Shown here piece after piece: positions 2,711 through 59,500 of a stretch of 64,000 nt of DNA. Position numbers and translations under genes: made by a program. Source of the DNA: Pseudeuparius sepicola. Lineage: Eukaryota; Arthropoda; Insecta; Coleoptera; Anthribidae. The notes under the pieces are model-generated. The model did no database searches, was not told where the DNA came from, and was given only the letters and a program-made list of their open reading frames with translations. The DNA is taken from assembly GCA_963920635.1 (NCBI GenBank), contig OY987299.1, positions 121,273,373 to 121,337,372 on the forward strand, given 5' to 3'. Position 1 is the first letter of the stretch; every line of letters begins with the position of its first letter.

Positions 2711-2733
2711 CAGAGAACAATAATTGTTCTCTG
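2711..2733. repeat. Palindromic micro-insertion 1 with target duplication
   Basis: The arms are CAGAGAACAAT and ATTGTTCTCTG around one central base. The insert is flanked by ATAATAT at 2704-2710 and again at 2734-2740. If the terminal G is counted with the flank, both copies are the 8-mer GATAATAT. The same arm sequence recurs at 46771-46791. Confidence 0.75.
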
Positions 2734-3832
2734 ATAATATCTCCTGTTAGTTGTGTAATAAACGTCTAGGTTTCTTTAATTTTTCCAAATTTCTGAATAC
2801 CCATATTTCTTTATATTTAGTAATTAGTGAACGAACATATAAAAAAGTTCGTTCTCGTAGACCATGCATTTTTCCCACATACATTTGCATATTTGAAGGC
2901 AGTGTAATGTAAATGATATATAAGATATTTTTAATTGTTTCCTTTCGCATAAGGCTAACCCCTACAGGAAATCTCAAAATCTAAAGGGAATGCTTATAAA
3001 TAGATGTTGCGGGGGGTTATTATATCCCAGGTATTTTTTGCAATTGGCATGAGGAAATATTGATTGTAATTATCCAGTTTCTGAAAACACATCAACAATT
3101 TGAAAAAGATACTAACAAAATAAAAACAATCAAACCCCTAGAAAATAGTATTTTAAATGTCGAAAACCAAAATAATTTTAAAACTTGTTTACGAAAAATA
3201 AAAGAAAAGCTTGAGTTTTTTATTTGAAAATTTCTTTCAAAAAAATAATCATCGGTGTTTGATTTATGTTATAAGAATGTTGAAACTATAGTATTTAATA
3301 CTCTACTACAAAAATCAAATCAAAATCGGATGGAATATAAAAAATATTTCCATGGCCCGGTTTTCTACCTACTTTATCTATTAACGTAGACCATAGTTCA
3401 GATAAAATTATTAATGTTTAGATCTCCGCTAGGTGGCAATTTTTTGGAAATACGTCAACAGCAAAGATAATCTAAAAACAATATGACTTTCACTTTCTGA
3501 AAATTTAAAAAATTTCGCTTGCTGCGCAAATCGTATCCACACAAACATAATTTGAATTTCTAGTAATTTTTGTCGAGTCTATTTTATCGACTTGTCTCGA
3601 ACAAAGGTGTGAAACTCACCGTGAAAAAGTGAATATAAACAAATAACAAGATTCTTTTTGGCTCTCGTCCTAGAGACCACAGCAAGGGGAGATGTGTCTG
3701 GCTTCTTTTCAGATTTTTATAAGAATATTTGATACAGAAAATCTATACTTACCTAACCTATATATTTTGTGCAAAAAAACACAGATAACGTAACAGAAAA
3801 TCGTCTGGGGCACCTCATTAATAGTATATTAT

Positions 3833-3952
3833 ACACTTAGGTTGAGAAGTGAGCCATTATATATCGAGCTTTTTTATATCCTGAGGCGCGTAGCGCCGAA
3901 GGATATAATATGCGAGGTAAATAATGGCCTTCTCAACCGAAGTGTATATAGA
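3833..3952. repeat. Short fold-back repeat
   Basis: Inverted arms contain 'cacttaggttgagaag' and its complement 'cttctcaaccgaagtg'. The centre is a small GC-rich hairpin around 'gaggcgcgtagcgcc'. Related phrases (attatttacctag) continue to about 4210. Confidence 0.6.
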
Positions 3953-4274
3953 ATTTTTTTTACAACTAACATTGAAATATTGCCATATTTTAGTTTATTT
4001 TAGTGATTTCTCGCTTTTTTCAAATACTTCGAAATATCAAGTAGCCTGGGAGTTCAGTTGTCAAGCTGATAAAATGACACTAATCTTTAAATGTCATATA
4101 GAAAATTTTTCATTATTTACCTAGGTATTTTTTTATTACCATTATTTACCTAGGGTGAGAAATATTACTTCTCATTAGAGGAATGAGGTAAATAATGGTG
4201 ATTTCTCAGGTTAGTAGTAAAAAAAATGGTTTCTGGAGGATGGCAATAAAAAACGGGTCATTGATGCATATCTA

Positions 4275-5508: not shown

Positions 5509-6480
5509 GTAGGTTTATTAACCCTTCTCGGGTACAACCGTCGATGGAACCAACGGTACAACCGTCTGAGGTACAACTAATGGAGGGTAGAGGCAGAGAA
5601 CAAGGAAGGGCTTGTTCGTTCTCTGGTAGAGGTAAGGAGCACCATCTCATATAGGTGATCGGCTCAAAAACTGTCGTCTAAAAGCATGATGGCGCTCGTG
5701 TTCTCCCCGGGTATGACCCGACCCGACCTTAGCGGTTGTAGTAGAGATGGGTAATTCGTTCATTTTACTAGGACCAAATCTATCGGTGGCCGATTTAAAA
5801 AAATATCGAATCATTTCATTCGGTCTTAGTTCGTTCGATCGCCGGCCGTTCGATGTGTGGACTGTGGAGTGTCGGTAAAATAAAAATATTCGACGAGCAA
5901 GGAAATCTATAAGGGGGGGGGGGTAGAGTATTCTATTTTGCACTTTTTTAATAAAGTTTAAAATAACAACAAAAATAAAATTATCATTTAATCTCAATAT
6001 ACAGTGTCTGTCCGCGGTGGCGTCGCTCGTACCGGCGCTGACTTTTTAGACTGCACGTTTTTCTGCCTTCGATCGACCTTGGTTCGAGGCAGGCGCATGC
6101 GCATATGTCTTTAAAGAAAAACACCGCTATGGCCAAGAGCGCTGGACAAAGGTGGGTTCACGGTATTGCTCCTAAATAGCTTTATCCGTGTGATTTACTA
6201 ATTGTTCTACATTCACTGGGATTACTACGGTTTTCTAGGGTTTTCCGTAGTACTTGAGCGAATGCTATCCTAGTCGGCCCTAGCCGCAAATGGCAACGAA
6301 GACAAAATAATAGTAATTGCCCTCCTCCCCCGCACAAGCATGTGGTTGCTTCTGGGGTACTCCTAGTTTGGAGTATTGTGAGGGTGAGAATTATTATTAT
6401 TATTGTATAGTGCAAACTTTATGGGTGGCACTTTACAACCTTAGAAATTTGCTCTATACACATGCCTATAATTTTTAATA

Positions 6481-6994: not shown

Positions 6995-7254
6995 GTAAAA
7001 AGTTACCTACCGGGTCTCCGCGGTCCTGAGTGTCTCGACATCTTGTTACGTGTTTTGAGCTAGCAGATACCTACTAGAGGGCGCTTATAGTCCACTATAC
7101 GGTCTAACTATTGGCAAATTTGAGGGGCCGAACTAAAGGTATCGTGCAGGCCGAAGCTCGGGGCCCCCAAATGAAGGGGGCCCCGGGCGGCCGCCCATTG
7201 CGCCCATTGGTAAATCCGCCACTGACTGCTTCATGATTGAATCGTTTCTATATG

Positions 7255-7283
7255 CTGGACCAACACATATAGTGTTGGTCCAG
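7255..7283. repeat. Palindromic micro-insertion 2 (CTGGACC type)
   Basis: Twelve-base arms CTGGACCAACAC and GTGTTGGTCCAG flank ATATA. Direct repeats CTATATG lie at 7248-7254 and 7284-7290. The first 17 nt, CTGGACCAACACATATA, match the terminus of the THAP-family element at 39127 (CTGGACCGACACATATA) at 16 of 17 positions. Confidence 0.8.
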
Positions 7284-8201
7284 CTATATGTTGAGATTCG
7301 GTCAATCAATACTTTAAAGTGATCGAATCTCAGTGATTCGTGATTGACACATCTCTAGCAGAGTGGAAAGTAGCAAAGTTCGGAGTGTAGATTTGGTACC
7401 CGAGGGCAACATCAGCGCCATCTTAAGTTAAGGACGGAAATAAAACGTCATCACCTCGCGACGACCTTCATTTGACCGTGTTCCTAACTAGGATAAATGT
7501 TGCTAAAACAGAAATTGTTTACTGGAGTGCAAAAATTCCGCAAGTGTCTGTAAGATGGCGCTGGAGTTGGAGAGCGGCCATTGGTACAGAGCGAGAATAA
7601 AAAGTAATGTTTCGCGCTAAAATAAGTTTCCGTTCCTTATAAGTTGTTTTGTTGCCCGGCAAACAAGGTCGTTGGTCGGAACCAGGGGTCTAGGGGGAGG
7701 CAGGCGGACCGACCCCCTTTTTTATACAAATAACAGCACATCGCTCCCATCCTGGCGTATTTTGGCATTGAAACTGTGAATTGTTAAACACAAAATAATA
7801 ATATGAATATTTACGCTCCTTTATTTTTCTATATTTTGTCATAGTTATTAAGAATATTGTTGAGTAAAATATTAAGTAAGAGGACTACCTACCGGCTGTC
7901 AAATCTACTGTCATGACATAATAATTCTCCCTCAAAACCGCTTGAATGATCACAATACTTACCCTAACTGACATTTAGAATTTATGTCACTATAGTTTTA
8001 TCTTTTATCATTCTATTAACTTTTCATTAAGTACTTAATATTGATAAACCGAAAGAAATTAAAATTCTGTTGTATTTGATCCAAAGTTGACGTAAAATTG
8101 TGAATTTTGTTAGATACGTGAAATACCTACTATTTGCTGATATCAATATATGTATTATTTTGGCATACATTTTGAGTAATGGAAAATGTAATGTAAATAA
8201 A

Positions 8202-8371: not shown

Positions 8372-10707
8372 TAGTGTTCCTAACTCTTGCGGAAAGTGTC
8401 TTTTCCACACTCGATTTCTTGGCTGAACTCCGCTACGCGTCGTTCAGCCAACTGCAATCGCGTGCGGAAAAGTGGCACTTTCCGCACTTGTTAGGAAATA
8501 TACTACATAGGTACTACCATAGAAGAATTTACGTAGTAGATTCTTCTATGGTACTACCTAAATGCTTGCCGGTACATCAACTTTGTGTCAAACATAATAG
8601 AATTTTAAAGCGTTAATATAATTTTCTTTTGAAAAAGACATATTCTTATCAATATTTTTTAGTAATAATAAAAAGTTAATAAAATTATAGAATGATACTC
8701 GTATATTATGTTGTATAGCTAATGATATAAAATAGTTTTTACTAAGTAATGACTTTTTAAAATTTTAAGAAATTTTATAAATAGGAAATAGGCGCTTATG
8801 TAACATTAAAATAGAAACGACTTTTTCAAGTTAAACGTTTTGAAATTGTAACAAATAAGCCAATTTTTAGGGATTGTATTTTTTAAATATAATTTTTGAC
8901 AGATAGCGAAAGTCACGTGACCACGTTTGAGTCGGTTATTTTTCCTTGTTTTTAATCGAAAGGTAACCCCAAAGTTAACTGCATATGTGTTCTATTATTA
9001 TCCGTTAATAAAAAAATATGTTTAAATTAATAAAAAGATACATTTTGCACCATCTTCATTTTTTCCAAAAAGGTTTTTTGGTTATAACTTTTGTTTGACG
9101 TTCGATTGTTTTTTCCAAACGACATTACATTGTTTGGAAAAAACTGCAACAAACTGGTTTTTAAATCATTAATTTGCCTCAAAAAATACAGAAGATGTTC
9201 TTTCGCATCCATATATCGTTTTCTTTTTTCATTTTTTATTTTCGAGATATGTATTTATCTTAATTATTGCGTTACCTAAAATGTGTGTTTGAATGTAGTG
9301 TTAATGCAAACGAAGAAACACCTTATGTACACATAAAAGACCATGTTTCATTTCATTGAAAAAACTAAACATAATTTTGCAGAACTTTTAAGCCAGCAAT
9401 ACACTATACCTACAGAAAACGTGCCGAATCACATTCTTTAACTAAAGATATGCCTTTAACAGTAAAAAACACAGTAGACATTCAAGTGACCTTGAAAACG
9501 TCGTCTGCCTACAAGTGAAAACGTGCGTCTTACATTACACCATTGAATAAGGACTTAATCAATGATTACACCTCATAATATGCTTCAACTTTTATGTGAT
9601 TTTCGTTTTTGAGATATTTATAATAGCTGCATTTATTAAAATGGAACACCCGGTATAGAGAATTTTCGACATACCTATACATATAGAGACATAGACATGA
9701 ATCCTCCCCTAATGTCAGTTTATATGCTAACGATTGTGTTTTCCTCACGAAAAATACATAACGGCGACATAACTATAAGAACAACAGTACCCAACCCACA
9801 CGTATAAATAATGCAAAGTCAACTAAAGCAGTTTTTAGTGCCGCCGTGTACCTTTCAAGCTAAAAATCAATGAACCATTGCTAAAAAGAGAGGGGTTAAA
9901 ATCACAGATCGGAGTCTTTGAGCTACGAGGGTCTCCCGAATATACCTCTTGAAGTTTTATATTATTTTAATATTAAAAATTCGCAATTCATAGTATATAA
10001 TAATATGGAAGTAATACAAAAACATAAAAAAGTAATCAGAAAGCTTAGTTGATTAAATATTATATCGCCAAAACGTAAAATTGATCATATGAAAATAATA
10101 TATGTAATTATTAAACTGGACCTGTAACAACAGCGTCAACCGTTCATCGATCGTCTGTTTTTCGCGCCATCTGATAAATAATAGCCACACTTTTGCATTC
10201 CCGCTGCATAATTTAAGGGGTATTTTGCCTATGTTTTTTATTTACAAGACTGGATAATTACAATGTTTATTACCGTGTTTTCGTTCCGAGCATATTCCGA
10301 AACCTATGCCAATCTTAACGAAGGTAAAATTCCGGCTCAAGAGACAAAATAGACGAATTTATGCCGGCATAAGGTTTGAAATTCAAAAAAAAATCTCGCC
10401 CATAACTTTTAAACTAGTGTCATTAGTATCTATGGATATTTTAAAAATACCCGTGTTTTTTGTAATCCTTTGAAATTCGCTACTTTTTCCAGCTAGTTGG
10501 AAATAAAAATACATTGATACAGGCAACCAAACATACAATGGCGAGCCCCCCCCCCCCCCCCCTTAATGGTTTTGAGGGACAATTTTATAACACGGAGATG
10601 GTCCTCCGTCCTCCTTACCTCTACCCTCCGTAGGTACAACCAAAGAATTAGAAATTCTGTGGGTACAACCCTTGTTATTGTTTATATCCAATAACAAGGG
10701 TGCAACC

Positions 10708-10885
10708 GTTGACTGACATATTTACAAGACTTATCGCGGCTATGGCTTCATGTCCTGGAAAACAGATGGCGCTGATATCTAACAATGTATTTTGTATTGC
10801 ATTTTATGTCCGGGAAGCGCATGGTGAGCCAAAAGAGTGTCAGACTTGGCAACCGTGAGCAGTCTTTATTAATACGTCAGTCAAC
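10708..10885. mobile_element. Mutator-like MITE, copy 1, with 9-bp target duplication
   Basis: The element starts GTTGACTGAC and ends GTCAGTCAAC. GGTGCAACC occurs immediately before (10699-10707) and immediately after (10886-10894), an exact 9-bp duplication. Copy 2 is at 56945-57117. Duplications of 8-9 bp are typical of Mutator-like elements. At 178 bp it is non-autonomous. Confidence 0.85.
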
Positions 10886-11755
10886 GGTGCAACCCTTAGA
10901 CAAGGAAAGAGAGAGGACGCCTCAAGGTTATGAGGACGCCTAACAGCGCTCGCGGCCGTGTTACCGACTGCCACGCCACATCGCACGACAGGCCAGTGGC
11001 GTGGCAAGAAACGCGTTCTTAGCCAATATCACACAAATGTTAAAAATGAAGAGGTAGTTAATTCTGACTTACATGTAATTTGAAATATTGTTATTTATTT
11101 GCAGATAATTTCCCAAATGTAAAGCTAGTGCCAAGTGCATTTGTGTATTTGCGTCGATTTCGAATCAATCAAAATAAAATAAATAATGCACCCCCATGGA
11201 CATGGAAAACAGCCCATATTTTAGGAAACTAAGTATCATAATCAATTAAGAAATTTTCATTAAAAACGATGTTAAAAAATAATTATATTGGTCCTATTTA
11301 CAAACAAAACAATGCACTTTATCATACTAAAAGATAGAAGGAATTTGAAGAAGTTATATATACATCAAGAAACATATTTTTTACTTTGGATCTGGCTTAT
11401 TGCGCAAAATATTATTCGGGAGAGACATTAGAATATAACTCAAGATTAACTTTTTCTTCCACTTCAAAATACAATTTTTTAATTTTATTCAAGAATCATT
11501 GCTAAATACAGAATGGAGCATGTCGCTGACAAATATTTAACAACATTTTCCATATAATATTAGGAAATATCCGGCTTGCGGCATTCCTTGTACACACTGT
11601 TATGTAAAAACTGTAATATATGGTGATATTTCATACATTTATCAATAAGCAACGATGAATTATTTAGAAAGCACGATTTCCCATTTGCAATTATCGAAAT
11701 TACAATAAGTACTTAACATAATTCTAACTTTAACGGACTTCTTTTAATTTTTTAG

Positions 11756-13318: not shown

Positions 13319-16300
13319 ATGGATAGGAATGTGGTTTACATTTTAGCTGCGTTTTCTTGTTGCTGTCATGGAGTTTATTTGACCAATCAGAGTTCGAGAG
13401 TTCTTGGACAGAACGACCACGATTGGCCAGAGGATGAAGGCGTGTGGGGACCGTTGTTGGAAAAATGGACACTAGAAGCGGGAAGCAACAAAAGGTAGGA
13501 TACTCAGCTTTGCAACCGCTGAATCAGCTGTATCAATGATAGAGGGCACACTGGCCTGGGGGCCCACCGAATAAAAAAAAATCAAAATATTTCTGCTTGG
13601 TGATTACTTACTTCAAACTGAAAATTAAATTATTTTCTTTTAACATTTGTATGCATCTATGCATAACATAGACATAATAAAACGAAATTTATCAGTTTTT
13701 GTTTACAGTACGTATCTAATTACAGTTATAACGCACAAAGGCCCTTGTTATCTTTTTATTTTTGGGATTTAAAAATCGGAGGGCAGTTGGTAGTTTTATT
13801 TCTATAGGTATTATTTATAAATAATATTATCAAAGTCTAGAGAATCTATCCATAACATTACTTTGTCGCATATAGCAAACGGGTTCAGGGGGTGTGGCTA
13901 AGTCTGTGATCCACGCCAGGGTCTAATTAAACAGTATTATTCCTAGTAAAATTATAAAAAATTTAAAAAAACGAAAACTAACAACGACGAAATCAAAAGC
14001 TGGGTTCAGTCAGTCAGTCAGTCAGTCAAATACATACCTAGAGTAGTTATAAATGTAATATTTTTCTTTTCATAAAGTACCAAAGTGGATATTATAAATT
14101 ATATTGATACGGATGTGTCTATTACTTACATAACCTGTGAAATGTAATTCCTGTGAATTTCTTTTTGTCCACTATAGAATTGCTACATATTTATTTCCAG
14201 AGGTCAATAGCTCGCAATAACAAGGAAAACTGCACTTTTAGCCACTTTTAATGCACTTTTAACACCGAGTTAACAAATTGACGTTGTTCTGGTAATTTAT
14301 CACGTGGGTGAACCCGTTTTGGGTCACGTGACAGCATCTCCCCCCCATACTACCTCAATGATTTCTGCATATATAAACGGGTATATTAAAAAAATAGGAC
14401 TCTGCTGCATCCAATTGTTTTCCGCTGAATTCGTTTCCGAAAACCCTTCTCGTGTTAAGCAGTCCCTGTCATTGGTGGGAAGCAAAGAAATTTCGGCGCG
14501 AAAAATCAGTTTGTATGAGACCGTCGCAGAGAAACACGTGCGCGCCATATTATTGCTCAAAAAGTAGTTACTGTAAATAGTATATATGTTATTTAAATTT
14601 TCTATTTCAAATTTGCACGTATATGTTTTAGATGATAAAAGAATAATAGATTTTAGTAGTCGGAAACCGACATTGAAAAATTGCCGGTTTTTAGTTCTTG
14701 ACCACAGTGGTCGAGAACTAAAATTTACTTGTGATTTTTTCGCCTCTGTATTAATTTTTACGTCAATCTTTTTTCATTTTTCTTCGAGTAAAATTAATTA
14801 TTTTTATTTATATTTTCTAATTATTAATTTGCGTCCATCAATGTAAGTCTAGAAATAACGTATTTTCTATTTTAAATTTTGGTGGTCGAAAATTACTTTA
14901 ACTTCGTTCTGTTCTCGACCACTGCAAAATTTAAAAAAAAATAAAATATGAAAAAATCCGAAAAAACTCCTAGTGCAATTTCAAGGGATAAATGGCGTGA
15001 ATTTTACAAAAGAAAAGATGAGGCAACAAAGAAAATAGTTATAACTAAAAAGAAGTTAGCTAACAATAATAACAAGAAACCAAGCGACAAAGTTAGATTA
15101 ATTAATAAATAATAATATATCATGTGCACTGTGTGAAGAAGATTTAAACAGTGACGCACAAGATGAAGATAAAAAAATATTGGTGGCGACCATAGTCATC
15201 ACGATAACTATGGTGGCGACTTTTGTGATAAATGGTGTAGGTACTTACCTACCGAGTGTTTTGTGATATGCCATACAGTATTGCAGCAATGCAAGATTAT
15301 AAATGCGACCAATGTTAGTTTATTGTTTGTTTTTAAGTTTTACACTGAAAGAATTCCGCCAAGTGAGTTGCTTTGTTAAGATTTTTTTGCTGCGGTAAAT
15401 AGATATTATGCTGTCATAGCAAAAAAATTGCTGTGGCAAGTAAACCTGTTTTGCTAAAACTTCTTTGCTACCACAGCAAAATTTTTACTTGCGGTTAAAG
15501 GATAGGTCACTAGAAATTCCTTTTAGTGAGCCCACTTACTTACTTGAAGCCAGTCGTTTTGTTACTACAGGTGGGCGCAGTCTGCTGCAATGCACTCAGC
15601 TGTGGTAATTCAACCGCTCATTTGTGGCTAGCGAGCCCTCACTTACAACAAGTGAGTTGCTTTGCTAAAATTAACGGTGAGTTCCAAATGCGCATGCGCC
15701 AGCTGGCAAGCCTGAGCCCGCCAGGCGGCCCCGCCGCAGTCGTCGGCCGTCGCGCAGTTGTTGGTCCGTGATGATCGGGCTGATCGTCTAGACCTGTACA
15801 GCTCTGGCATCATTGTTTTCCGGAAACATTGCCGTCTTTGAAGGTACGTAAAAATTAATATTTTCATACTTAATGTCCGCTTGGTAGCACATTATCATTA
15901 TATTACACATAATCTGGTATCCTGTCAAAAGTATAAAACAGCGCAGCCAGATTGTTTGTTTTTCCTGTAGTTTTCCCATTTCATGTTTTCTTTATAACAT
16001 GTTGAGTCATTCACTACAAATCCCTAATATATTCTTATTACTTGGCCGTCTCAATCTCAAAGATATTTTTTGGGGACACGTAGGGTGTGTAAGGCTAGGT
16101 GTAGAAGAAACCTGCAGGGTTTCCGCGTGAAAAACATGTTATTAAAAAACATGAAATGGGAAAACTACAGGAAAAACAAAAAAATCTGGCTGCGCTATGT
16201 TTTACACTTTTGACAGGATGCAGATTATGTATAATATAATGATAATGTGCTACCAAGCGGACATTAAGTCTGAGATATTAATTTTTACGTACCTTTAAAG

Positions 16301-19300
16301 ACGCCGACAATAAATAAATTTTTTGCTATGGTAGTTAAGCAACTCACTTGTGACTAGTGAGCTGCTTAATTGTCATTAATGAGCTGATTCAATTACGGCA
16401 ACAAAACCTACATAACCACAATCAAATTATTTGCTATGGTAGCTAAGCAACTCACTTATGGTTAGTGAGCTGACTCACTTGCCTTAATACAAGGGTTCAA
16501 TTATCACAGCATAGTGATTTTCAACAAATCTGCTTACTTACTGCAATTGAGTTGTCTTTAGCAAAGCGTGCTTTGCTGCGGTAGCAAAGTAACTCACTCG
16601 GCGCCTATTTAATGCAGATATTTTGCTGCGGTAATTGAGTTCTTACTAACCGTAGCAAAGTACCTAATTCTTTCAGTGTAGTTTTTTATACTTATTAAAG
16701 CATATATTTGTTTGTTCCTTTTTAAAAATCACCGCATTGACATTTAAATGTTTCTATATTATACCTACATACCTACTTATTGGTAATGTAATAATAATGT
16801 AATGATCTCAGGAAGTTCCTATTCATTTTAAAACCTATAACCAAAGTCTAGAGAATAGTAGTAAAACTCCTAGTGCAATTTCAAGGGATAAATGGCGTGA
16901 ATTTTACAAAAGAAAAGATGAGGCAACAAAGAAAATAGTTATAACTAAAAAGAAGTTAGCTAACAATAATAACAAGAAACCAATCGACAAAGTTAGATTA
17001 ATTAATAAATAATAATATATCATGTGCACTGTGTGATGAAGATTTAAACAGTGACGTACAAGATGAAGATAAAAAAATATTGGAGGCGACTTTTGTGATA
17101 AATGGTGTAGGTACTTACCTACCGAGTGTTTTGTGATATGCCATATCATACGGTATTGCAGCAATGCAAGATTATAAATGCGCCCTGTTAGTTTATTGTT
17201 TATTTTTTAGTTTTAGTTTTTTTATACCTATTAAAGCAGATATTTTTTGTTCCTTTTTAAAAATCACCGCATTGACATTTATGTTTCCTTTTAAATATAA
17301 TTTTTTCTATATTACCTACCTACTTATTGGTAATGTAATAATAATGTAATGATCTCAAGAAGTTCCTATTCATTTTAAAACCTATAACCAAAGTCTAGAG
17401 AATAGTAGTATTCTCTAGACTTTGCTATAACTAAGGTACCTACCTATAAGACACTAGTAAGCTCCATAAATATGTTTTTTCTTCAAATTTTTATTTTTGT
17501 TATATTTTTAATTTTTTATAAATAAAATAACTGATTTTGTAATAAATCATTACAAAACAACAAATTTTGATTGAAAATCAAGCGGTCGAGAACTGACTTA
17601 AAAGTGGTCGAGAACTGTGACTAGTGGTCAAGAACCGGCAAAATCGCACTTTTTTAGATTTTGGGTAAATTTAAGGCCAAAAACACAAAAAACTTAGCTG
17701 AAAATTGATAATACTTATAGGGTATTTACCCTACCTATGAAGAAATAACAACGCTGGTGCAATTTTGTCAGAGATTCAGTAGAATTTAAATATTAAATTT
17801 AAAATTTCGTGGTCGAGATCCAGCACATTTACCGTATGTAGATTTTATTTTACCCTCCCTCCCCCCCAGGGGCCCTTGGCTTAGCCTTTGATACAGGGCC
17901 CACTCAAAGCTAGTTACGCCACTGATTATGTAGGTACACTTTTAAAGTATTTGCTGTTTTATATTGCACTTCCAAAAACAATCTAATAGCTGATAGATTA
18001 ATGTAGGCCAGGGGAATTGAACGGGTGATTTTTTTATAGATATGTCCCTGAAAGGTCATCATTTGCGAAGTATTGATTCGACCTTGCCGCAAAATCCTGG
18101 CCTACTGCGATTTTTTAAAGGGGTGCGTTTTTCGAAAAAGCATATTAGCACAGACTAACGTTGCAAAGCTATTTATTCTGTGATATTAGGCATTTTTTTA
18201 TTTAAACTCTGACACCACAGCATTAATCATGACACACCGAAACCCCCATATACCAAATTCGAACAAAAAATATGCAGGGTGTCAAATTTGAGAAAAATAG
18301 GAATTTTAAATGCATCTGGCGAGTCAAGTGTGCCATGGAATTACTTCGAAACAGGACCAGTCGCAGTGTTGATGTGCAAAATCCGATAAAAAAATATGCA
18401 AGGTGTGTTCTTCTTCTTCTCTGTGCCAACTCAAAATGCTGAATTTTTTAAACTTTATACGGGTCAAAAATCGAGTATATTAAAACCACCCCACTCACTA
18501 TAAACGAACTAAGTCTAAAAAATACAGAAGCCTGCTAGTAAGTAAGTCCATATCAGTTAAGATAGCTGATGTGCTACAACAGGAAACGCACAGAAATTTT
18601 ATCATCTTATTTTAGACAATGACTTTGTTGAGGTTGAGAATAATTTAAATTTGTCCGATAATTTAAATTGGTTTTTATTTGTTGCTTGGAATTTTGTAAA
18701 AAATAAAATTATCGTGTTTATTAAGATTTTTCAAAAATTCCACAGCACTCATGACCCGTATTTTGAGATAGTCTGTATATTATTTTATTGAATTTTTGCA
18801 CACCAACACTTTGAGGGGTCCTGGTAGTCGTTCAACTGTTTCGAAATAAATCCATGGCACACTGAACTCGCCAGATGCCATTAAAATTTCTATTTTGCTC
18901 AACTTTGGCATCCTACAGAATGGAACCCCCCAGGGCCGTTCCTAACCCTTTTGACGCCCCGTGCAAAAATTTTCCGCCCCCCATAAAAAATTAGTTGAAG
19001 GTACAAAATGTACTCAATAATAAGTTTGTTCGTTAAAATATAGGAAAATCAATCGAAATATCGTGAAAATCCTATTAATTTTTATTAGTAATTAGTAACC
19101 TTAGCATAATACAGATAAACTCACTTTGTAATTAGGTACAAGGAACATTATATACATTATAGTACATACAAAGGCAAACAAAAATTCTCAGTTCTAATCA
19201 TGTTACCCTTAGCTAAAAGAAACACAAAAATATAGGAATACTTACAAAACTAACAACCTATTAATAAAATATGAACTCTCCGCGCTTTCATTGAAGCAAA

Positions 19301-40921: not shown

Positions 40922-41159
40922 TGTTGTATATTGTATGCAAAATTTCAGCTGAATCCATAGAGATCATATATAGGTAGAGTGCTGGACGATTTTTTTATAC
41001 ATAGGATGCGAGGAAAATCTTTGACGAATTTAAAATCATAAAATAGTAAAAAATAGTAATAAATAGGCCCAGTGGACATGCGCATTTGCAATTTGAGGTT
41101 GTGTTTTGTGAAACTTGAGCATTGCGGTAAACTAGTATTGGAGGGGAGAAGCTGTCACT

Positions 41160-41703: not shown

Positions 41704-42156
41704 CGCCTCCCCCCCATACCAAGAACGGTAGACGCACAGGATTGCTCGATCTCGTAAGCGTAATGTTCGCCAGTCGGCAGATGGGTGTGACGTCAGCGCT
41801 AGACTAACGGTTATATTTGTACATCAGCGGTGCGGATTTTGACGCGGGTTTTGACTGTGTTTTCTTTATTTTATGTAACCTGTTTTTAGTTTTCAATCTA
41901 TTATTGCTAAATATTACCATTAGTACCATCTTGCTTAGTATTAAAAACGTAAGAACTAATATATTTTGTCAAATTATCTCTCTAATATCGAATGTTTTGT
42001 GCCATTATAGGTTAGAAGTTAGATTTGAGATCTCCTCGTCATTGTCTTCGATTTTTTTGTAGGTACTGGGTTATTTAATAGGTAGGTACTTATATTTTAT
42101 CATTTTAAATACACTTTACCCTATACTTTTTTTTTATTATTTATTTAGAATACATT

Positions 42157-43345
42157 ATGACGGGAACGAGGTGTGCTGTTTATGGTTGTAATGCAACTTA
42201 TGCTTTAAAAAAAGCAGGCGAAAATATTATGTTCCATACCTTCCCCAAGTCAAAAGATATGGTTTCACAAACGATTAGGAGAGAATGGGTGGCAAGATGT
42301 AAAAGAATGGACAGTTTCAACCCTACTAGCAGTCATATTTGTTCTCGTCATTTTATGGAAAATGACTATGAAAGAGATTTACAGAGTGAACTGCTAGGTA
42401 AAAGAGTTTTTTAACCTTTATATCAACTATGACTTATTTTTATTTTAGGATATACTCCAAAAAGGAAACTGAAGAAAACAGCTGTTCCAACAGTGGCTTT
42501 GTTCACTAAAAGCATGAGTAACATGGAACAATCATCATGCTTATCGAGATATAATAGGTTGGCAAATAGAAATAAAAAAAAACAAGAAATTAATTACTTG
42601 TTAACAGAATCAACCAATAATAATCAGCCCATTTCAGTATATTTAAGTGAATTTGAAGATACTTCCAATATAGGAATGGAAACTAACAGTACTTATAACG
42701 ACGTTGCAAATGACGACTTAAAGAAAAAATACAAAGATCTGTTGGAAGAACATATTGTGTTGAAGTCCCAGTACAAGCAGTTGAGAAAAACTTTTAATAC
42801 AAAAGTAAAAGCACTTAATGATCAATTAAGACATTATAAATCGAAAAGCTTTAAAAGACCAAAACCTGAAGTAACAATAACTTGTCTTTTAAGAAAGGTA
42901 CTGACTAGCAACCAAATTGCATTACTCTCAAATAAAAAAAAGAGAGTTAACTGGACTAGTGAAGAAATAGCAACAGCTTTTACTTTGAGGTATTATAGCA
43001 AAAAATCTTATCTCTACTTACGAAATCAACTTTCCTATCCTCTGCCTGCTTTATCTACACTAAGAAAATGGGCTTCCAAAATAAATGTCAGCAAAGGGAT
43101 TTTACAATCATGATATTCTGCTAATGTTAAAACTTGCAGGAGAATCATTTTCAGATTTTAAATGAACTACTGTGCTTTGGTTCGATGAAGTGAAAATGAA
43201 ATCTGTAGAAGAATACGATGTTTCGAGAGATGAAATTTTGGTCGTCATAGACAGATGGAAGTAGTGATGGCTAGAGGTCTTTTTTCTGCATGGAAATAAC
43301 CAATATATATTGCATTTGATCAGAAAATGTCTTAAAGTAAAAAAT
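42157..43345 (+). pseudogene. P-element/THAP9-like transposase, truncated and decayed
   Basis: Exon 1, 42157-42397, encodes a complete THAP domain (MTGTRCAVYGCNATYALKKA; WVARCKRMDSFNPTSSHICS; RHFMENDYERD). Exon 2 starts at 42449 (G|GA in phase) with YTPKRKLKKTAVPTVALF, then a coiled coil (KKKYKDLLEEHIVLKSQYKQ) and the P-transposase HTH-like region (LLSNKKKRVNWTSEEIATAF; LRYYSKKSYLYLRNQLSYPL; LSTLRKWASKINV). It stops at 43113. Broken frames then give TVLWFDEVKMKSVEEYDVSR and, after a shift, VVMARGLFSAWK-stop-PIYIAFDQKM. These match the RNase H-like core and the 'ARGLF..WKQPIYY.FD' motif of P transposases. At least one frameshift and two stops plus loss of the C-terminal half mean no active enzyme is made, although exons 1-2 could still give a THAP-coiled-coil protein. 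Confidence 0.85.
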
Positions 43346-43568
43346 AAAAGTTCTCTGTACTTAGTTGTATCTAAAAAACAAAGGATGGCAAAATTTTTTC
43401 AAAAACACAGAACACCCACCCTCTCTATATTTTAAACGGTAGCGCCCGGCGCGCTTAGCAGTTAAGAGGTCTAGAGGTGACGACACGCGCACGTTGAATT
43501 TTGTCCGATCGAGCAATCCTGAGCTGTGCATCTACCGTCCTTGGGTGTTTACCACGGTGTATCTATAC

Positions 43569-44110
43569 CTGGACCGACACTGTATTAAAGCAGAGCATAT
43601 AAATGCTCTGATTAAAGACCCGACCATGACGTCATATTTCATTGTTGTTTGCGGACTGAGGTGGCGCTACTCGACGAAAAAAATGGCAGCTTATAGGTTA
43701 TAGAGGAGTATTCTGTGGTTATAAGTATGGCAGTTTCTGACATTTAGAATGTCCCATATTTGAAATATCCTGCTTTAGTACACCATTTACGTTCTTTTTA
43801 CGGTAACGAAAACCCATTGCTGTCAATATTTCGCAGTTTTGTCATATTAAATAAGCTTTATATGTATAGGTAGATTTATTTGTGGTAACATGAAATTTCC
43901 ATACTCATGAAGAAAATCGTATGCAGACCATTACGTGAATTGCAGAAGAATAAACACTATTGGAATTATGTGATGACCTGTCCAACCAGTTGAAGAAGCG
44001 AGAGTGGATAATATGCTCTGATTATATTTTGGAAGAGTATTTTGTAACGTATGCAAGAACTAAAGTAGAAAATTTGGTCTATAGCCCCAAAGTGAACCAG
44101 TGGTCCACTG
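43569..44110 (+). pseudogene. CTGGACC-family THAP element fragment
   Basis: It starts CTGGACCGACACTGTATTAA. The part at 43618-43730 matches 39150-39265. Near 43950-44070 one frame reads ELCDDLSNQLKKREWIICSD then YILEEYFVTYARTKVENLVY, the C-terminal half of a THAP domain (W..ICSD..-EE-F). A micro-insertion lies at 43591-43610. The right terminus was not found. Confidence 0.5.
43591..43610. repeat. Palindromic micro-insertion 7
   Basis: The sequence is CAGAGCATATAAATGCTCTG, with ATTAAAG exactly on both sides (43584-43590, 43611-43617). The other family copies (complement of 25210-25235, and 39145-39155) run ..attaaaga.cc without the insert. Confidence 0.85.
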
Positions 44111-44262
44111 TAGAAGGAAGAAACTAGAAAATCGAATGCGTTTTATATTTATACTTACTACCATAGAGAAGTGAATAAATCCTTTGTCTATGCTTACTAC
44201 AGCTAGCCATGGACTGCATTTGAAACCACAGAGAACGTATATGTATATCATTGAACTCTATA

Positions 44263-46136: not shown

Positions 46137-46185
46137 ATGGCATGCTGAGCGGTGAAGGACTGTAAAAATAATAGAAAATCATTCG
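46137..46185 (+). pseudogene. Degenerate THAP-type N-terminus
   Basis: The frame from the ATG at 46137 reads MAC-stop-AVKDCKNNRKSF. One TGA replaces the residue after the first cysteine of a C-x4-C THAP start. It is followed by the repeat-like 'gtaggtacattgaggtag'. It is too short to prove, but position and spacing resemble the other THAP starts nearby. Confidence 0.35.
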
Positions 46186-46770
46186 TAGGTACATTGAGGT
46201 AGACTACCTCAATGCGTAGTTATATTAGATGTAAACAACAAAAAATGATGGGTTATTGACGTTATTGTGCAGGTGCAGAACTATATCGGATCTCACAAAA
46301 ATACTGATTTGGATAGTTCATAATCGTTCAGGATTTTATAAAGTGAGAAAACGAAAACAGAGGATTTTATATATAGTCCTCTTTATAGCAGAATGCGTGC
46401 GACGACTGCGACGCAAGGGGGAAGAACTCGTAAATATTATGGAATTAGTCACAATCCTTCAATTAGTTCAGAATTACGAGCCACTTGGAATCTCATATTA
46501 GTCAAACCCTGATAATGGATCGCAAAGCGTTCTTGTAATTTTGTTTATATCTGCTACCGCTGTAACTTGGATAGACTATAGAGATGTAATATCAAAAATA
46601 TCAAATTCGCTGGAATGAAATCGACACATATTATATTCTGTCCGGCCCTGTATCATTCTGAAGTGCAAGCAGAGAGAACAGACAAGGCGCGAGGCGCAAA
46701 TGTATCTGAAGTGCAAGCAGAGAGAACAGACAAGGCGCAAGTGTAAAAACCCGAAGCTGTAAAATTATAC

Positions 46771-46791
46771 CAGAGAACAGGGTGTTCTCTG
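46771..46791. repeat. Palindromic micro-insertion 8
   Basis: Arms CAGAGAACA and TGTTCTCTG surround GGG, with ATTATAC exactly on both sides (46764-46770, 46792-46798). The arms equal those at 2711-2733. Confidence 0.8.
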
Positions 46792-47075
46792 ATTATACTG
46801 AGGACGCCCGCTCTAGGATTTTTGCCATTCTCCCCCCTCCGATTCTGTAGTCAAAACCCTAACCACAGGATAAACATTCCCTGAACTGTGCCCTAACCCT
46901 CTATGAACCTTGGTCAAAGCTAGGGTTCCAAGGAACCCTAGTCAAAGCCAAAGCCACAAGTTGGAACCAGAGAAATGGAGTAGGGTTGGAACCGAGCCTA
47001 ATAAGTCAGACGTGATTTGATCGTAAGAATGGTATATATAAAAACTACATGAGAATTTTGAGAATGGCATATATA

Positions 47076-48413: not shown

Positions 48414-49137
48414 TATACTATTATTTTCATTCTTGCATTGACCGAACGGACCACGGACCTCCTTTGACCGGCACTTCATTCCCCGAAACATAAAATCTGA
48501 TTTTTATGGAAGTAGCATGGCTAATTGGTCAGTTGCCGAATCCAACATAGACAAAATTCCTTTATGGAATCCAATACGACGAGTACAAAACAACAAGCAA
48601 CAACGAACTAACCTTGGAGTCCTTATGCACTCGACTGATGTGGCTTGCGGATCGGGAGAAACCGGTTAACGTCCGGCGTCAAAATGGCGGTGCCAACGTG
48701 TCGTATCCTGTGATCCTCAGGGCTGCAGCAGAGGAATTCCATATGTCTGGGCTGCAGGCGGGAGAGGGTCCCATACAAGGGTTGGAGAATTGAAATATGA
48801 AAATATTGACCTGGTCTGGTAGAAACGTGGAAGATAACATTTGAACCCCACAAGAGATAAGATACAGTCAAGAAAGTCAAGATCTGGATTAGGTAAATAA
48901 CCTACGCACGCCATCTGAATTAATGATATCTCACATAAGAGAAAATACACAATCAAGAAAGTCAAGAGCTGAAGTAGATAACCGCATGTGCCATTCGAAT
49001 CCAACAATTATTTTTTACTAGGATAATACCAGGGATCCTTTTAAAGAGTCCCTGGTATGGTATGACACCAATGAATATGACACAACAGACACTATTTAGT
49101 CAGACGTGCGCACTGCACGCCACTTTATTCTCCGTAC

Positions 49138-49169
49138 CACAGACTAATTGCAAAGCTATTTATTCTGTG
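49138..49169. repeat. Palindromic micro-insertion 9, second copy of the 34-mer
   Basis: Left part CACAGACTAATTGCA, right 17 nt AAGCTATTTATTCTGTG, identical to 18149-18182 except for two missing bases. Flanks are TCCGTAC (49131-49137) and TCCATAC (49170-49176). Confidence 0.8.
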
Positions 49170-49764
49170 TCCATACTATAAAATGAAGGTCCCGATTTTT
49201 TATGCGATGAGAATGGATAATCGTCCTAGTTACCGATTCCAATAACATGAATAAAATAACAACATATGATAACAACAAACTAACCTCAACAAATACCGCC
49301 TGTACCACAGATTACCCACCTTGCCTGTACAAAACTGCTGAATTTCAAAAATTATAATAATAACAAATTCCATTTTAAGATGTTTGGGTGAGGAGAAATT
49401 TCTTTGATAAGAATTAGGAAAACAAACATGAATCAGAGGTAAACTATTACCAAAGTAGATAAAAGTTTCTTAGAGTTTCTTTCACAATCTTGTGATTGGG
49501 TATTTTTTTGTAGTACCTAGTTTAAGAATAGCACAGTAAAAATAAATGATTGAAAGTTCCAGAGATTTTAGAATAGAAATTGCAAAAATTAAAAATAATA
49601 TTACTTTATGTCTTTCATGAGTATTATCATTTATTTTATTACACTTTGTTAGAATGGCATTAATTTGCACTAAATGAGAGTGAGTCACCTTTAAATTGCA
49701 GTTATATTTATAATTACCTACCTGATTTAAATAATGTTGGGAAAGAGGTAGCATCATTTTAAAT

Positions 49765-51503: not shown

Positions 51504-51621
51504 ATTAAATTATCTACATATTTATTGTTCGTCCTAGTCTTATTACATCCATTAATGTATTTACAACTTTTCTATTTGTTATTGTTATCTAATATATCTG
51601 TATACCTTAGAATATTTGTAT

Positions 51622-52104: not shown

Positions 52105-52299
52105 CTTGTTACTTCTTTTTTGGGAAAGAAAGAAACGCACAGAAAATCTAAGAATAAATTAATTAGGAGTTTTCCAGAACTTGAATTTTGTGCTTCCTTT
52201 TACTTTGACGTTTGACGTCAAAATTATATATTTTGTTTCCATTTCCATTGGTTTTTAATTTGCTTCTGATGGCAACACTGCAGAAGAACGGATCATATC

Positions 52300-52317
52300 C
52301 AGAGAAATATTTCTCTG
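52300..52317. repeat. Palindromic micro-insertion 10 (perfect 18-mer)
   Basis: The perfect palindrome CAGAGAAATATTTCTCTG is flanked exactly by ATCATATC at 52292-52299 and 52318-52325. Confidence 0.9.
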
Positions 52318-52468
52318 ATCATATCAAAAACGGCCCTCCTAAATTTTTTTTTTTTTACGAGGGTTTCAACTAACATAACTTTTCTGTGTGTCACAAAACA
52401 AAAAAGTTAGATTCAAACACAAAAGTTAAATTCAAACAAATCTAACCTTAAAAAGTACGCGTGAATAT

Positions 52469-52525
52469 CAGAGATAGAATATTATCCATATAAAATACAA
52501 ATAATTTTATATGATATTATCTCTG
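52469..52525. repeat. Palindromic insertion 11 (57 bp)
   Basis: It starts CAGAGATAGAATATTATC and ends GATATTATCTCTG, with an AT-rich hairpin centre. GTGAATAT flanks it exactly on both sides (52461-52468, 52526-52533). Confidence 0.85.
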
Positions 52526-52571
52526 GTGAATATTTAAAATCATGATTTTTTAATTTTTTTTTATTGATAAA

Positions 52572-55500: not shown

Positions 55501-56283
55501 TGTAAATTTCCCTTCATTCTGCTCATTATCTATGTACTTTTCAACCCTCTTCTAGGCTTGTATGCGAAAATGGGGCACCTAAATCCTGTCACATATAGGT
55601 ATCTTGAGCCTCTTTATAAAGTCCAAGTGAAAAATCAAGAATTTGTTCTTTAGTGTATTAGATTAGCCCACTGTGTTTGAATTTTTTTGTTATACAGGGT
55701 TGTCCATTACTTACTGCTTACTTATAAAATTATGTTGTTTTGTTTTTGCGCACAGGTCCCCAAGTTCATGCGAAAAAATGGTCGTATGTTCTTTATTTCA
55801 TGTTGACTGTTTCTCATTTTTCTTCTTTATTATTGATAGGGCTAGAGCTAGTTATATTTATTTTACTTATTAATTTTGAAATAGAGATTATTTTGCTCCA
55901 AATTGTCAGATGTAATGCTTATCAGAGCCATACTATTCGACCCATAACTGATTTTATTATTATAGTTGTACACTAGTTTTTTTTTAAACTTATCACAATT
56001 ATTTATCACCACATATTTTATCTCTTACATAATAACCATCAGCAAATTATCAAAATAACTTTTTAGTGTGTCACTCGGAGAAAGATTGCAATCAGAAGAT
56101 TCTTCTGTCAGAATGTTGGGCTCCATTGGAAATCGGGAAATGAGTTTCTCAACGCGTAAAAAGAGAAACTATGGAATGGAGGAAAGGAATAAAAGACACA
56201 GAGAAGAACGGAAAAAACTCATAAGACCCATTCACGGCATCAAATCAAAAACAAAATCTTCTTTCTATAATAAACGTAGATAA
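52572..56283 (+). CDS. NOL10: Nucleolar protein 10 (WD40, ribosome biogenesis)
   Basis: Exons 52572-52637, 52699-52959, 53015-53370, 53747-53975, 54036-54331, 54389-54773, 54830-55083 and 56067-56283 keep phase throughout and give 687 residues, matching the vertebrate length (about 688). The N-terminus is conserved (MQVSQYDDVKIYNLSAGKSL, RRIELIQDFDMP). WD40 repeats follow (TIKVSRDGQYVLATG, GTQEGRVEAWDPRS, VGTTTGQVLLYDVRSSKP). Then come APRWCGFLDSLTEELEE, YDDYKFVTDHELENLGLEHL and the NUC153 motif (DGRFKSLFENPDFEVD). The C-terminus is acidic then strongly basic. Exon 3 starts at 53015 rather than the nearer TAG because only that acceptor keeps frame (SKLVFLQCDRYIEF). Known homologues act in the nucleolus in early 18S rRNA processing (yeast Enp2). 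AATAAA is at 56304-56309. Confidence 0.95.
55084..56066. other. NOL10 intron 7
   Basis: It is AT-rich, with a one-ended 'tacagggttgtccattactt' near 55694. No nested gene was recognised. Confidence 0.5.
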
Positions 56284-56505
56284 CGTTTCAAACTTGTTAT
56301 TAAAATAAATAAGTTATAATTTTTTGTTGTGTTTGATTCCCTTAGGCAACAAGAGGTTATCAGTCAAAACCTGATTACTGGTTTTTTAAACATATTGTGG
56401 TGTTTTTATAATGTCTATTCAGAAAAACTACTACTAGTAGTAGTTTTTTGTTGGTGGTGTCCAGAGGAGGTAGGTTTTGTGTTTATTTAGTGTGTATTAT
56501 TTAAA

Positions 56506-59500
56506 ATGCAACAGCAGGTGAAGGTATGCGATATGAACATTTTAGGGGATTTGAGATGTGCAAAATCCTACAAAGACAAGAAAATGGAGGACAGCAATGA
56601 CAATAGCAATTTGATCACGACCAGTACCACGGTAAGTTTTTGTTTTGATGTACATGATGTAACAAATGCTTTGTTTATCTGGTTTGCATTTTTAACAATG
56701 GTTATCTCTGAAGAACGTTAATTATAAAAGGAATAAGACAATTTTATTCGAATCTTGACTGATTATTATTATTTATGATTGTTTTTTGCAAGGAATGCAA
56801 ATATATCTCTTGTAAAGTATGGCAATATTAGTCTTTTTTCGTTTTTGTTTGTATGAGTTGATGGTATAGGTATATTTTTAGCAAAAATGAACGGAGGAGA
56901 ATACTACACAAATGTTGACTTAGTAAGTGAAATTCATAAAAAGCGTTGACTGACGTATTAAGACTTCTCACGGCTATAGCTTCATATTCTGAAAAGTAGA
57001 TGGCGCTTATGGTCAACAATGTATTTTGCATTGTATTTTGTCCGGGAAGCGCATGGTGAGCCAGAAAACTGTCAAACATGACAGCCGTGAGCAGTCTTTA
57101 TTAATACGTCAGTCAACGTAAAAAGCCTTTGTTACATTGACAAATCATGAATTTCTTCATGATAATATCACAGAAAATATAACAAAGAACGTAAGATTGT
57201 GAGTGTAGATGTAAAAACAAGAAAAAGTGATAATGGGCATAGCACTCAAAGTTAGAAAAAAAAAAAAAAAAAGACTAGTAACCGCATACACGTGTTTCAT
57301 GCTATTTGGCAATCATCAGTACGGTGTAACATCAACCAAATCGAAAATATAGGAAAGATTTGGGAAGCAACAAATGAAGTCCAGGCAGGAGCCAACAGCA
57401 CATTTGCAGCTTTAGTCAGCACATCAAAATAGAAAATATACGTAGTATATATTATATAGAGGATGTTAATTTTCCGTCAAGTTTTATGTGAACTTTAGGA
57501 GTACCAACATTGAAATTTGAAGGGAGATTATGTTTTATATTACTTTTTTTGATACTTTTGTACATTTCTGCTGTCGGTGCATGTAAAACAAGGAAACATT
57601 TTTATATAACCACAAATTTGGTCTTGTTAGTAGTCGTTAAAATCTGACATAAGGGGCCAAACAATTCATAGATTTCTTCGTCAGTGTAAAATAGAACTTT
57701 TTGTGAAGAAATTGTCAATGTAAATCAGTTTCAAAGTATTCGCTGGCTTTGGACACTTCCAAATATTGCATAACCCCTAAAGCACACTAGGCACAGCCAT
57801 TGAGTAAAAGAATATAATATATTTAATAAGGTATATATTCTTTTACTCAATGGCACAGCTTACCCTAACATAGTTAGGCCCTAACTATGTTAGGGTAAGC
57901 TGTGCCTAAAGTATGTTGAGTTATGTCATAAGTTATTTGCATATTTTAAAATACTTTTTTAGTTGTAAGCTTGTTCCAAGAAAATGATTCAGATGTTAAA
58001 TTGTCAAGCTATGACAATAAAATATTTATATATGTTTATAGCCTTCCATTATAGGGGGTACCGAGTACCAATAAATTTGGTTCAAATAACTGCAAAGGTC
58101 TGGAAGATATGAAATAATAGTTATTTATGTACCAAGGCATTGAAGTTCAACTGTTTATGGCTCGTGGAATTTAGTTGCCGAGGCCTCTGGCCGAGACAAA
58201 TAAACCACACGACATGAGTCATAAAAAGGAACTTCAGTGCCGAGGTACATAATATATATTTTTTTGAAATCGAAAAAAAAAGTTTTATTGGGTAAAATAT
58301 TTAAAAAGGAAATCGCCCATCCATGAGCCGACCACATGTGCCTCTCCTTGACTTCAACGATCGCTCCACCTTGATCAAGCACGATATGCAACGGCGCATT
58401 TTGGAGAAGCTACCAAGATCGTGCATCACATGCAGCTTACATAGAAATAATATTAATATTCAAACAGACCAAAATACTTATACTGAAAGATTGCGTTGTT
58501 ATATGTACAATTCCGCAATAAGGCTGAAATATTAAATGATACTTTATTGGCCAGTTTTTGAATATTTTGCCACGTTTTACTGGCGACAAACACGTCTGAC
58601 ATTTGGTTTGTTTACATCTTGCCAAGGCCTACCTATTTATTGAAAAAATCGAACTATAATGACTTATTGCCGATTTCTGAGCTTTTAATGGCGATCTTCA
58701 GGCTCTTTAACGCCGATTAAAAAACTTTTTTTCATACTTTAATATCCTGTATCTATCTCCCTTAGGAAGCCTCAAAGAGAAACTAGGATTACTTTTCGAA
58801 ATTCCATCAGTTGTCAAAGTAACCAGCCCAAAGCCCTCTGCTTACCGTTCACAGATGGAGTTGACAAGAGGAGAAAAATAATTTTACTATTAAATCATTC
58901 TTTATAAAAAAAATTCTGCTTGTCGAGAAAATAAGATTACCATATAAAAATCTTAGGTCAGATGTACAGGGTGTTAATAAATTAAGAAAACATGAAAATG
59001 TTTCAAGAGAGAAGTACCGTTATTATTTTAAGACAAAATGTTTATAAAAGAAAGTTGTTTATAATTCAAAATAAAAACTCAATACAAAATTTTAAATCTA
59101 AATTTTGAATTCTACATTAATTTTTAGTTGAATTTCTGAAAATAGATGGAGAAAATGTGTGAAGGTTGGAAGAGGATATGTAGAATAATTTTTTCTGATT
59201 TCATAATCGTATAAATTGTTATTTCATTTTTTTGTTTAACAAGAGTTATTTTCATAAATTCAACATAAAAAAATAAAAACATAAATTCAAACTTCAGGTT
59301 TCAAATTTTGGTTTATGAACAACTTTCTTTTATAAACATTTTGTCTAAAATAATTACTAATTGAAACATTTCAAATTTTTCGTAATTTTCGCAAACCTTA
59401 CATCTGACCTAAGATTGTGATATGGTAATCTAATTTTCTTGACAAACACATTTAAAAATTGGAAATGTTTATATTCATATATGGGAGTCGAGTTAGCAGT

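Follow-up and report, generated by a model that had tools for sequence, protein, structure and literature searches.

The stretch of DNA analysed here, referred to as the window, covers 64 kb of contig OY987299.1 from the beetle Pseudeuparius sepicola, and all positions are counted within it. Scans of this single window bring out 21 sites at which a short palindrome of 18–57 bp, starting with CA and ending with TG, lies between direct repeats of 7 or 8 bp, which amounts to about one site per 3 kb. The inserts are named below by their first base, and the outer coordinates include both copies of the flanking repeat, the target site duplication (TSD). They are interpreted as probable scars of excised P-superfamily transposons. 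A sequence-only reading of the same DNA had listed twelve inserts, and all of them are present where it placed them. Their repeats are exact at ten of the twelve, with a single mismatch at 41581 and at 49138. Eleven start with CA and end with TG, the exception being 7255 with CT...AG. Ten measure 18–34 bp and the remaining two 55 and 57 bp. The sites 5594, 8518, 9541, 10641, 17389, 39733, 39969, 44162, 46192 and an inner insert at 52487 were not in that list.

Two of the inserts are perfect palindromes with self-complementary centres: 40900 (40892–40929, insert 40900–40921; 22 bp, CACATACCTATATAGGTATGTG; 8-bp TSD TGTTGTAT) and 52300 (52292–52325, insert 52300–52317; 18 bp, CAGAGAAATATTTCTCTG; 8-bp TSD ATCATATC). 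Others are near-perfect and contain one to five odd central bases. To these belong 2711 (2704–2740, insert 2711–2733; 23 bp, CAGAGAACAATAATTGTTCTCTG; 7-bp TSD ATAATAT), 43591 (43584–43617, insert 43591–43610; 20 bp, CAGAGCATATAAATGCTCTG; 7-bp TSD ATTAAAG), 46192 (46184–46222, insert 46192–46214; 23 bp, CATTGAGGTAGACTACCTCAATG; TSD CGTAGGTA/CGTAGTTA), 46771 (46764–46798, insert 46771–46791; 21 bp, CAGAGAACAGGGTGTTCTCTG; 7-bp TSD ATTATAC) and 17389 (17382–17431, insert 17389–17424; 36 bp with exact arms of 16 nt; 7-bp TSD CTATAAC), as well as 7255, described with the look-alikes below. Unlike centres are found in longer inserts, namely 5594 (5587–5632, insert 5594–5625; 32 bp with CAGAGAAC arms; 7-bp TSD GTAGAGG), 18149 (18142–18189, insert 18149–18182; 34 bp; 7-bp TSD ATATTAG), 39733 (39725–39773, insert 39733–39765; 33 bp with CACATACCT arms; 8-bp TSD CGTATGAA) and 44162 (44154–44200, insert 44162–44192; 31 bp; 8-bp TSD CTTACTAC).

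The set is further made up of 8518 (8511–8557, insert 8518–8550; 33 bp with CATAGAAGAAT arms; 7-bp TSD GTACTAC), 9541 (9534–9571, insert 9541–9564; 24 bp; 7-bp TSD ATTACAC), 10641 (10633–10706, insert 10641–10661; 21 bp; 8-bp TSD GGTACAAC), 15191 (15183–15220, insert 15191–15212; 22 bp; 8-bp TSD GTGGCGAC), 39969 (39962–40009, insert 39969–40002; 34 bp, CAAAGATCATAATACTCGAATATCATGATCTTTG; 7-bp TSD ATAAAAT), 41581 (41574–41616, insert 41581–41609; 29 bp; TSD GTTTAAT/GTGTAAT) and 49138 (49131–49176, insert 49138–49169; 32 bp; TSD TCCGTAC/TCCATAC). The targets of 2711 and 39969 are composed of two letters, and 49138 has the sequence of 18149 minus two bases (CG). The longest single insert, 57798 (57791–57859, insert 57798–57852; 55 bp with exact arms of 19 nt; 7-bp TSD GCACAGC), sits within a longer near-perfect TAGGCACAGC palindrome, TAGGCACAGCTTACCC...GGGTAAGCTGTGCCTA (57788–57908).

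The three look-alikes with ends other than CA are 7255 (7248–7290, insert 7255–7283; 29-bp palindrome CTGGACCAACAC..GTGTTGGTCCAG with CT...AG ends; 7-bp TSD CTATATG), 46921 (46913–46948, insert 46921–46940; perfect 20-bp palindrome TAGGGTTCCAAGGAACCCTA with TA...TA ends; 8-bp TSD GTCAAAGC) and 10670 (10670–10699; 30-bp palindrome with CC...GG ends; TSD GTACAAC/GTGCAAC), which follows directly after 10641. The region 10633–10886 thereby reads GGTACAAC, 21-bp scar, GGTACAAC, 30-bp CC...GG palindrome, GTGCAAC, a 180-bp miniature inverted-repeat transposable element (MITE) and GTGCAAC. This stack of three inserts suggests repeated hits on one regenerated target.

The 57-bp case (52461–52533, 52469–52525 overall; TSD GTGAATAT) can be written as CAGAGATAGA + ATATTATC + 27-bp CATATAAAATACAAATAATTTTATATG + ATATTATC + TCTG, with sizes of 22 + 8 + 27. 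It is a 22-bp CA...TG scar that has been split by a second one (52487–52513; 27 bp; TSD ATATTATC) with its own 8-bp duplication. The pair is counted as two sites, the outer one entering the length list with 22 bp. The sequence-only reading had allowed for extra filler or true mini-elements in its two long cases; the 57-bp one is resolved by nesting, while some 21 nt of filler would still be needed for the 55-bp insert. With the nested pair separated, 20 of the 21 lengths fall between 18 and 36 bp (P = 2.9e-8 against a uniform distribution over 16–72 bp), and 57798 is the sole longer insert. The predicted halt near 2 x 17 nt is thus borne out within the window. Two 17-nt stubs joined without filler can give no more than 34 bp; 18149 and 39969 have exactly this length, and 17389 has 36 bp. 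At the 20 of 21 sites where they were measured, the exact arms do not exceed 16 nt, with the exception of 57798 (19 nt). The fifth base is a G on both arms in 18 of the 21 scars.

The abundance of such inserts was compared with shuffled sequence, and the expectation that it would be exceeded holds: 21 CA...TG hits stand against about 0.2. A strict scan (exact 7- or 8-bp repeat, arm score of at least 6, 14–70 bp) gives 19 hits, with a shuffle mean of 0.23 (n = 60). These consist of 14 CA...TG inserts, 7255, 46921 and three hits near 35.8 kb that were discounted because they lie inside a 19-bp tandem array. The segment 35278–36105 holds 19-bp and 20-bp tandem arrays adjoining inverted A+T-rich repeats and is the source of these false hits. 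When one repeat mismatch is tolerated (arms 7/8, no complexity filter), 19 CA...TG hits of up to 36 bp and two of 37–72 bp are obtained, compared with 0.15 and 0.075 in shuffles (n = 40); for 73–300 bp the unfiltered numbers are 4 and 1.4. With the complexity filter, 17, 2, 1 and 12 hits fall into the classes of up to 36, 37–72, 73–300 and over 300 bp, against 0.05, 0.05, 0.85 and 6.1. Between 72 and 1500 bp the filtered scan yields 13 hits against about 7 in shuffles. Two hAT-like elements are included here, and a hit at 16842–17424 was dropped as its right end is common with 17389.

With other terminal dinucleotides, inserts of up to 36 bp number 0–3 per type; only GA exceeds this, with seven that all lie in the tandem array. 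In the range up to 72 bp, TG and GT ends give one hit each and AC ends none. Two hits are obtained when the window is read backwards. The control scan of viral contigs (149,700 bases), chosen for holding the CAGAGAACA palindrome, finds no hit. A search of the viral contig collection for such palindromes brought up 13 stretches (two identical), with flanking repeats of only 0–2 bp, and an arm of 18149 has no match in that collection. The flanking repeats also form a class of their own within the window. Among 109 CA-ended palindromes of 16–120 bp with exact 6-nt arms, 95 have repeats of 0–3 bp (64, 20, 7 and 4 for 0, 1, 2 and 3 bp), none has 4–6 bp, nine have 7 bp and five have 8 bp, the latter 14 being distinct sites.

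The inserts are insertions with target duplication, since four sites have empty paralogues, i.e. paralogous repeats elsewhere in the window with a single target and no insert. For 15191 the empty copy is located at 17031–17145 and aligns without gaps once the insert and one TSD are removed. For 18149 and 41581 it lies on the minus strand at 19573–19456 and 13961–13877, respectively. Empty copies of 43591 are found at 25230 (minus), 39127 and 32025; a fit with no more than one gap is obtained at 25230 and 32025, and the copy at 39127 exceeds a clean empty site by about 7 nt. The comparison took in 23 sites, with 39969 left out. Of the others, 17389 matches only a one-sided duplicate and 5594 only a stretch of 22 nt, and the remaining 17 have no copy in the window that spans the site.

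The one-sided match of 17389 is a tandem duplicate at 16842 in which the scar is cut off after its first 22 nt and gives way to other DNA, as if a later duplication had broken inside the palindrome. The duplicated segment, 16682–17410, has its junction midway through the 36-bp scar, and this palindrome may have served as the break point.

Twelve sites have duplications of 7 bp and nine have duplications of 8 bp. Recurring arm types hold their duplication length (CAGAGAACA 7, 7 and 7; CACAGACTAA 7 and 7; CACATACCT 8 and 8), by our own grouping and in a small sample. At 31 of 42 positions the target carries the T at position 2 or the A at the last-but-one position, a count that was reached in none of 20,000 random draws. 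In published systems, the target of 1360 is 7 bp with GTTNAAC, that of P is 8 bp with GTCCGGAC, and that of hobo, a hAT element, is NTNNNNAN with 8 bp at 1,196 of 1,198 sites (PMC3276498). Galileo duplicates 7 bp, or 8 bp in three D. willistoni copies, with the consensus GTATTAC (PMC4168063). Like the window targets, those of 1360/Hoppel and Galileo have the T at position 2 and the A last but one, and the TSD of 8518, GTACTAC, fits the published Galileo target GTANTAC; these families differ in that none of their coding sequence is seen beside the window scars. The ends of P (PMC2895639) and of zebrafish Pdre2 (PMC10983969) begin with CA. Pdre2 and THAP9 represent a P-superfamily transposase system from a vertebrate, with an 8-bp TSD, for which the passages covered hold no genomic scar catalogue (PMC10983969). 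The two target lengths, 7 and 8 bp, and the T/A preference agree with the P superfamily.

A route to such inserts is offered by the excision of the Drosophila P element. P transposase cleaves the 5' strand 17 nt within the element (PMC7776569), and the flanks therefore keep 17-nt 3' tails. In Rad51-lacking flies, the junctions left by excision of P{wa} retain, between two copies of the 8-bp target, at most 17 nt from each end (PMC2895639). The published spn-A junctions number 68, of which 63 are typed, three extend past the target and two are unaccounted for in the table; the 43 of the 63 with at least 16 bp left were compared with the window. Among these 43, perfect palindromes of 30 bp (14 junctions) and 32 bp (five), joined at AT/TA microhomology, are the commonest, and filler of up to 49 nt is listed for other junctions, from the mutants of table 2 (PMC2895639). 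In the other 20 of the 63, no more than 8 bp remain, and the window scans could not detect such a remnant. The likeness thus lies in the target on both sides, the stubs of up to 17 nt, the palindromic joins at self-complementary microhomologies of 2 nt and the templated filler (PMC2895639). The P{wa} junctions were induced in repair-mutant flies and stem from one family at one site with an 8-bp target, whereas the window scars are natural and accumulated, show about 17 arm types and both 7- and 8-bp targets, and are shorter on average.

Applied to the window, the scheme would run as follows. A P-type transposase would insert an element and thereby duplicate a target of 7 or 8 bp. Excision with a long stagger would then leave up to 17 nt of each terminal inverted repeat (TIR) as a 3' tail on each flank. 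These tails would be end-joined through short self-complementary annealing, or filled in and ligated with the addition of a few filler bases. The product would be the target, a TIR stub, the mirrored TIR stub and the target once more. What the window displays is 7- and 8-bp duplications, CA...TG ends, a dyad target preference, a limit of about 2 x 17 nt, varied arms and nesting. From these features the inserts are probably end-joined excision footprints of many P-superfamily families. This interpretation implies that full-length P-superfamily parents existed, that these families were cut with a 17-nt stagger and that repair followed the route above.

A parent might be recognized by its ends. 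Under the criterion of 17 nt with at most one mismatch, 7255 matches at 32025 and 39127, 44162 at 20067 (minus), 57798 at 1883 and 17389 at its 16842 duplicate; 100 shuffles give a mean of 0.06 such matches. The telling part would be where the matches stop. For 57798 against 1883 this is after exactly 17 nt (one mismatch), both 7255 arms also end at base 17 (one mismatch each), and the right arm of 44162 continues for 19 nt with one mismatch at 20067. Candidate single transposon ends are thus CATTGAGTAAAGGAATA at 1883–1899 (plus), which resembles the 57798 arms, and CATAGATAAAGGATTTA at 20051–20067 (minus), which resembles the right arm of 44162. The left arm of 7255 matches a repeat edge, CTGGACCGACACATATA, at 39127–39143 (plus); the copies of this repeat, starting at 32025, 39127 and 43569, differ in their upstream flanks. 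Weaker matches are CAAAGTCTAGAGAAT at 13831–13845, which stops at base 15 of 17389, and CACAGAAAATATA at 57169–57181, 13 nt as in 41581. Ahead of each of these two stands a 7-mer that resembles a target, its second base being T and its sixth A. The sequence-only reading had proposed that arms be compared with transposon termini. The outcome of this comparison is mixed: 7255, 44162 and 57798 have single-site matches that stop at bases 17–19, the other arms have no such match, and none of the matched sites could be tied to a whole element as its end. No partner end was found for 1883 or 20067, and with none that carries a matching target within 15 kb of nine candidate ends, the matched sites are leads and not parents.

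A broken P-superfamily element is present at 41715–43547 (plus), with a THAP domain (42109–42414), a P-transposase helix–turn–helix (HTH) region (42433–43113) and the start of the catalytic part up to about 43329. The presence of such a transposase remnant speaks in favour of P-type activity in this DNA. The HTH is recognized as P-type by its match to 6p5a (E = 1.8e-8). The inverted ends align from 41719 and 43544, the outer limits being guessed. Seven matches were obtained for the transposase fragment, three named ones coming from the beetles Diorhabda, Photinus and Gonioctena; no relatives could be confirmed in the viral contigs and genome contigs. The sequence-only reading had derived the inserts from P excision and linked them to this element. 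The mechanism is supported by the insertions, the TSD, the lengths and the laboratory-junction anatomy, but the local element was rejected as the source since its ends are unlike the scar arms.

Several observations weigh against a P origin of the inserts. The candidate ends of the broken element, CATACCAAGAACGG and CACCCAAGGACGG (outermost bases guessed), match no scar arm, and no TSD is visible around it. A complete element with scar-like ends was not found in the window, the long scan included, and no convincing partner end with a matching target was found within 15 kb of nine candidate ends. Of 48 random 17-mers starting with CA, a mean of 4.87 have a match elsewhere in the window; the number of arm matches says little, because the repeats of the window make such matches common. 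About 17 arm types are implied, by our grouping, and three look-alikes lack the initial CA. The arms with CAGAGAAC resemble hobo/Hermes hAT ends, and the T/A preference of the target is not P-specific, because hobo shares it; it does not separate P from hAT. The filler of about 21 nt required at 57798 is reached or exceeded rarely in the laboratory junctions. Lastly, the laboratory junctions exceed the window inserts in length (Kolmogorov–Smirnov p = 0.041); joining at microhomologies may have been more frequent in the window, or some families may cut with a shorter stagger.

Instead of being footprints, the palindromes of 18–36 bp might themselves be mobile, as ultra-short MITEs mobilized by a transposase of P-like or hAT type. 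In favour of this, the inserts are genuine insertions flanked by a TSD, and 18149 and 49138 share a non-palindromic sequence of 32–34 bp at different targets, as copies of one element would. Outside this pair, however, every site in this one window has its own full sequence, and the limit of about 34 bp would have no reason under such a model. Transposases also need more DNA than is available: deleted Drosophila P elements retain ends of 138 and 216 bp, and perfect 18- or 22-bp palindromes lack the space for internal binding sites. The P-MITEs of Anopheles gambiae are likewise non-autonomous P-type DNA with a TSD (8 bp), but they keep under 100 bp of each P end around an unrelated middle and are not palindromes of 18–36 bp (PMC1562414). 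Ultra-short MITEs are considered an unlikely source.

Short end pieces could also be relics of internal deletions, through interrupted gap repair or slippage between MITE arms. Such events would yield palindromes with a TSD, and the products of P{wa} excision in wild-type flies derive mostly from incomplete repair synthesis (PMC2895639). Against this, a broad range of lengths would be predicted; the four unfiltered hits of 73–300 bp compare with 1.4 in shuffles, and the 13 filtered hits above 72 bp with about 7, the two hAT-like elements and the one sharing the right end of 17389 being among them. This origin is considered improbable.

A hAT origin, either as footprints or as mini-elements, has in its favour that the hobo target NTNNNNAN fits, that CAGAG ends also fit hAT and that two elements in the window (18931 and 31238) are presumably hAT-like. 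Against it, 12 of the 21 duplications are 7 bp long, compared with the nearly invariable 8 bp of hobo. In addition, hAT excision forms hairpins on the donor flanks and presumably leaves no terminal repeat behind, whereas the window inserts are CA...TG palindromes. It is thus regarded as very unlikely. Chance or a low-complexity artefact, which an A+T-rich and repeat-rich window, the three array hits and the two hits in the backward reading might suggest, is practically ruled out by the shuffles, the other dinucleotides, the control loci and the empty paralogous sites.

If the inserts are footprints of P-superfamily excision, their number need not match that of the elements. When elements move by cut and paste alone, each jump leaves a single scar behind; scars can therefore be more numerous than elements and may record far more movement than the elements that survive. 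The scarcity of elements also allows another reading, in which a transposase of broad specificity would excise without inserting; zebrafish THAP9 excises elements with unlike termini and shows no integration in assays (PMC10983969). That the whole genome was swept in this way, with a broad-specificity THAP/P transposase removing many families, often without re-insertion, so that roughly every 3 kb bears a scar and few elements are left, is a tentative and rather doubtful extension. If true, the scars would testify from a natural setting that the entire superfamily has long cut with a 17-nt stagger, and the length ceiling would tell whether the stagger of Drosophila P holds across it.

Inserts this short likely escape repeat libraries, and, on this last reading and if the density holds, the annotation of transposable elements would miss most past P activity. 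Were the phenomenon general, each scar would stand for one excision and its repair in the germline, so that past transposition and the preference for microhomology or fill-in could be read from a single assembly. P-excision junctions themselves are already known from the laboratory. At the level of listings, no report of a natural genome with such junctions this dense and from many families was found in the open-access literature, where a search by motif name for the terminal motif CANRG gave no match either.

The window holds further elements. Those at 31238–32022 (ends CAGAGCYGGGCA, TSD TGCTGGAC) and 18931–19418 (ends CAGGGCCGTTCC, TSD GAACCCCC) are the two that we take to be hAT-like by their ends. 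A MITE of 175–180 bp with CGTTGACTGAC ends occurs in two copies, at 10707–10886 and 56944–57118, with 7-bp duplications (GTGCAAC and TAAAAAG, respectively). An inverted-repeat element at 25516–26161 shows no clear duplication; its arms hold CATACCTGTCAA, which resembles the published Pdre2 end CATACCTGTCAAC. The tRNA and Rfam scans gave no hits. A PHF20-like exon lies on the minus strand at 27047–28303. Its closest named relatives are from the beetles Molorchus minor and Gonioctena quinquepunctata, with 57% identity each, and two unnamed proteins rank higher.

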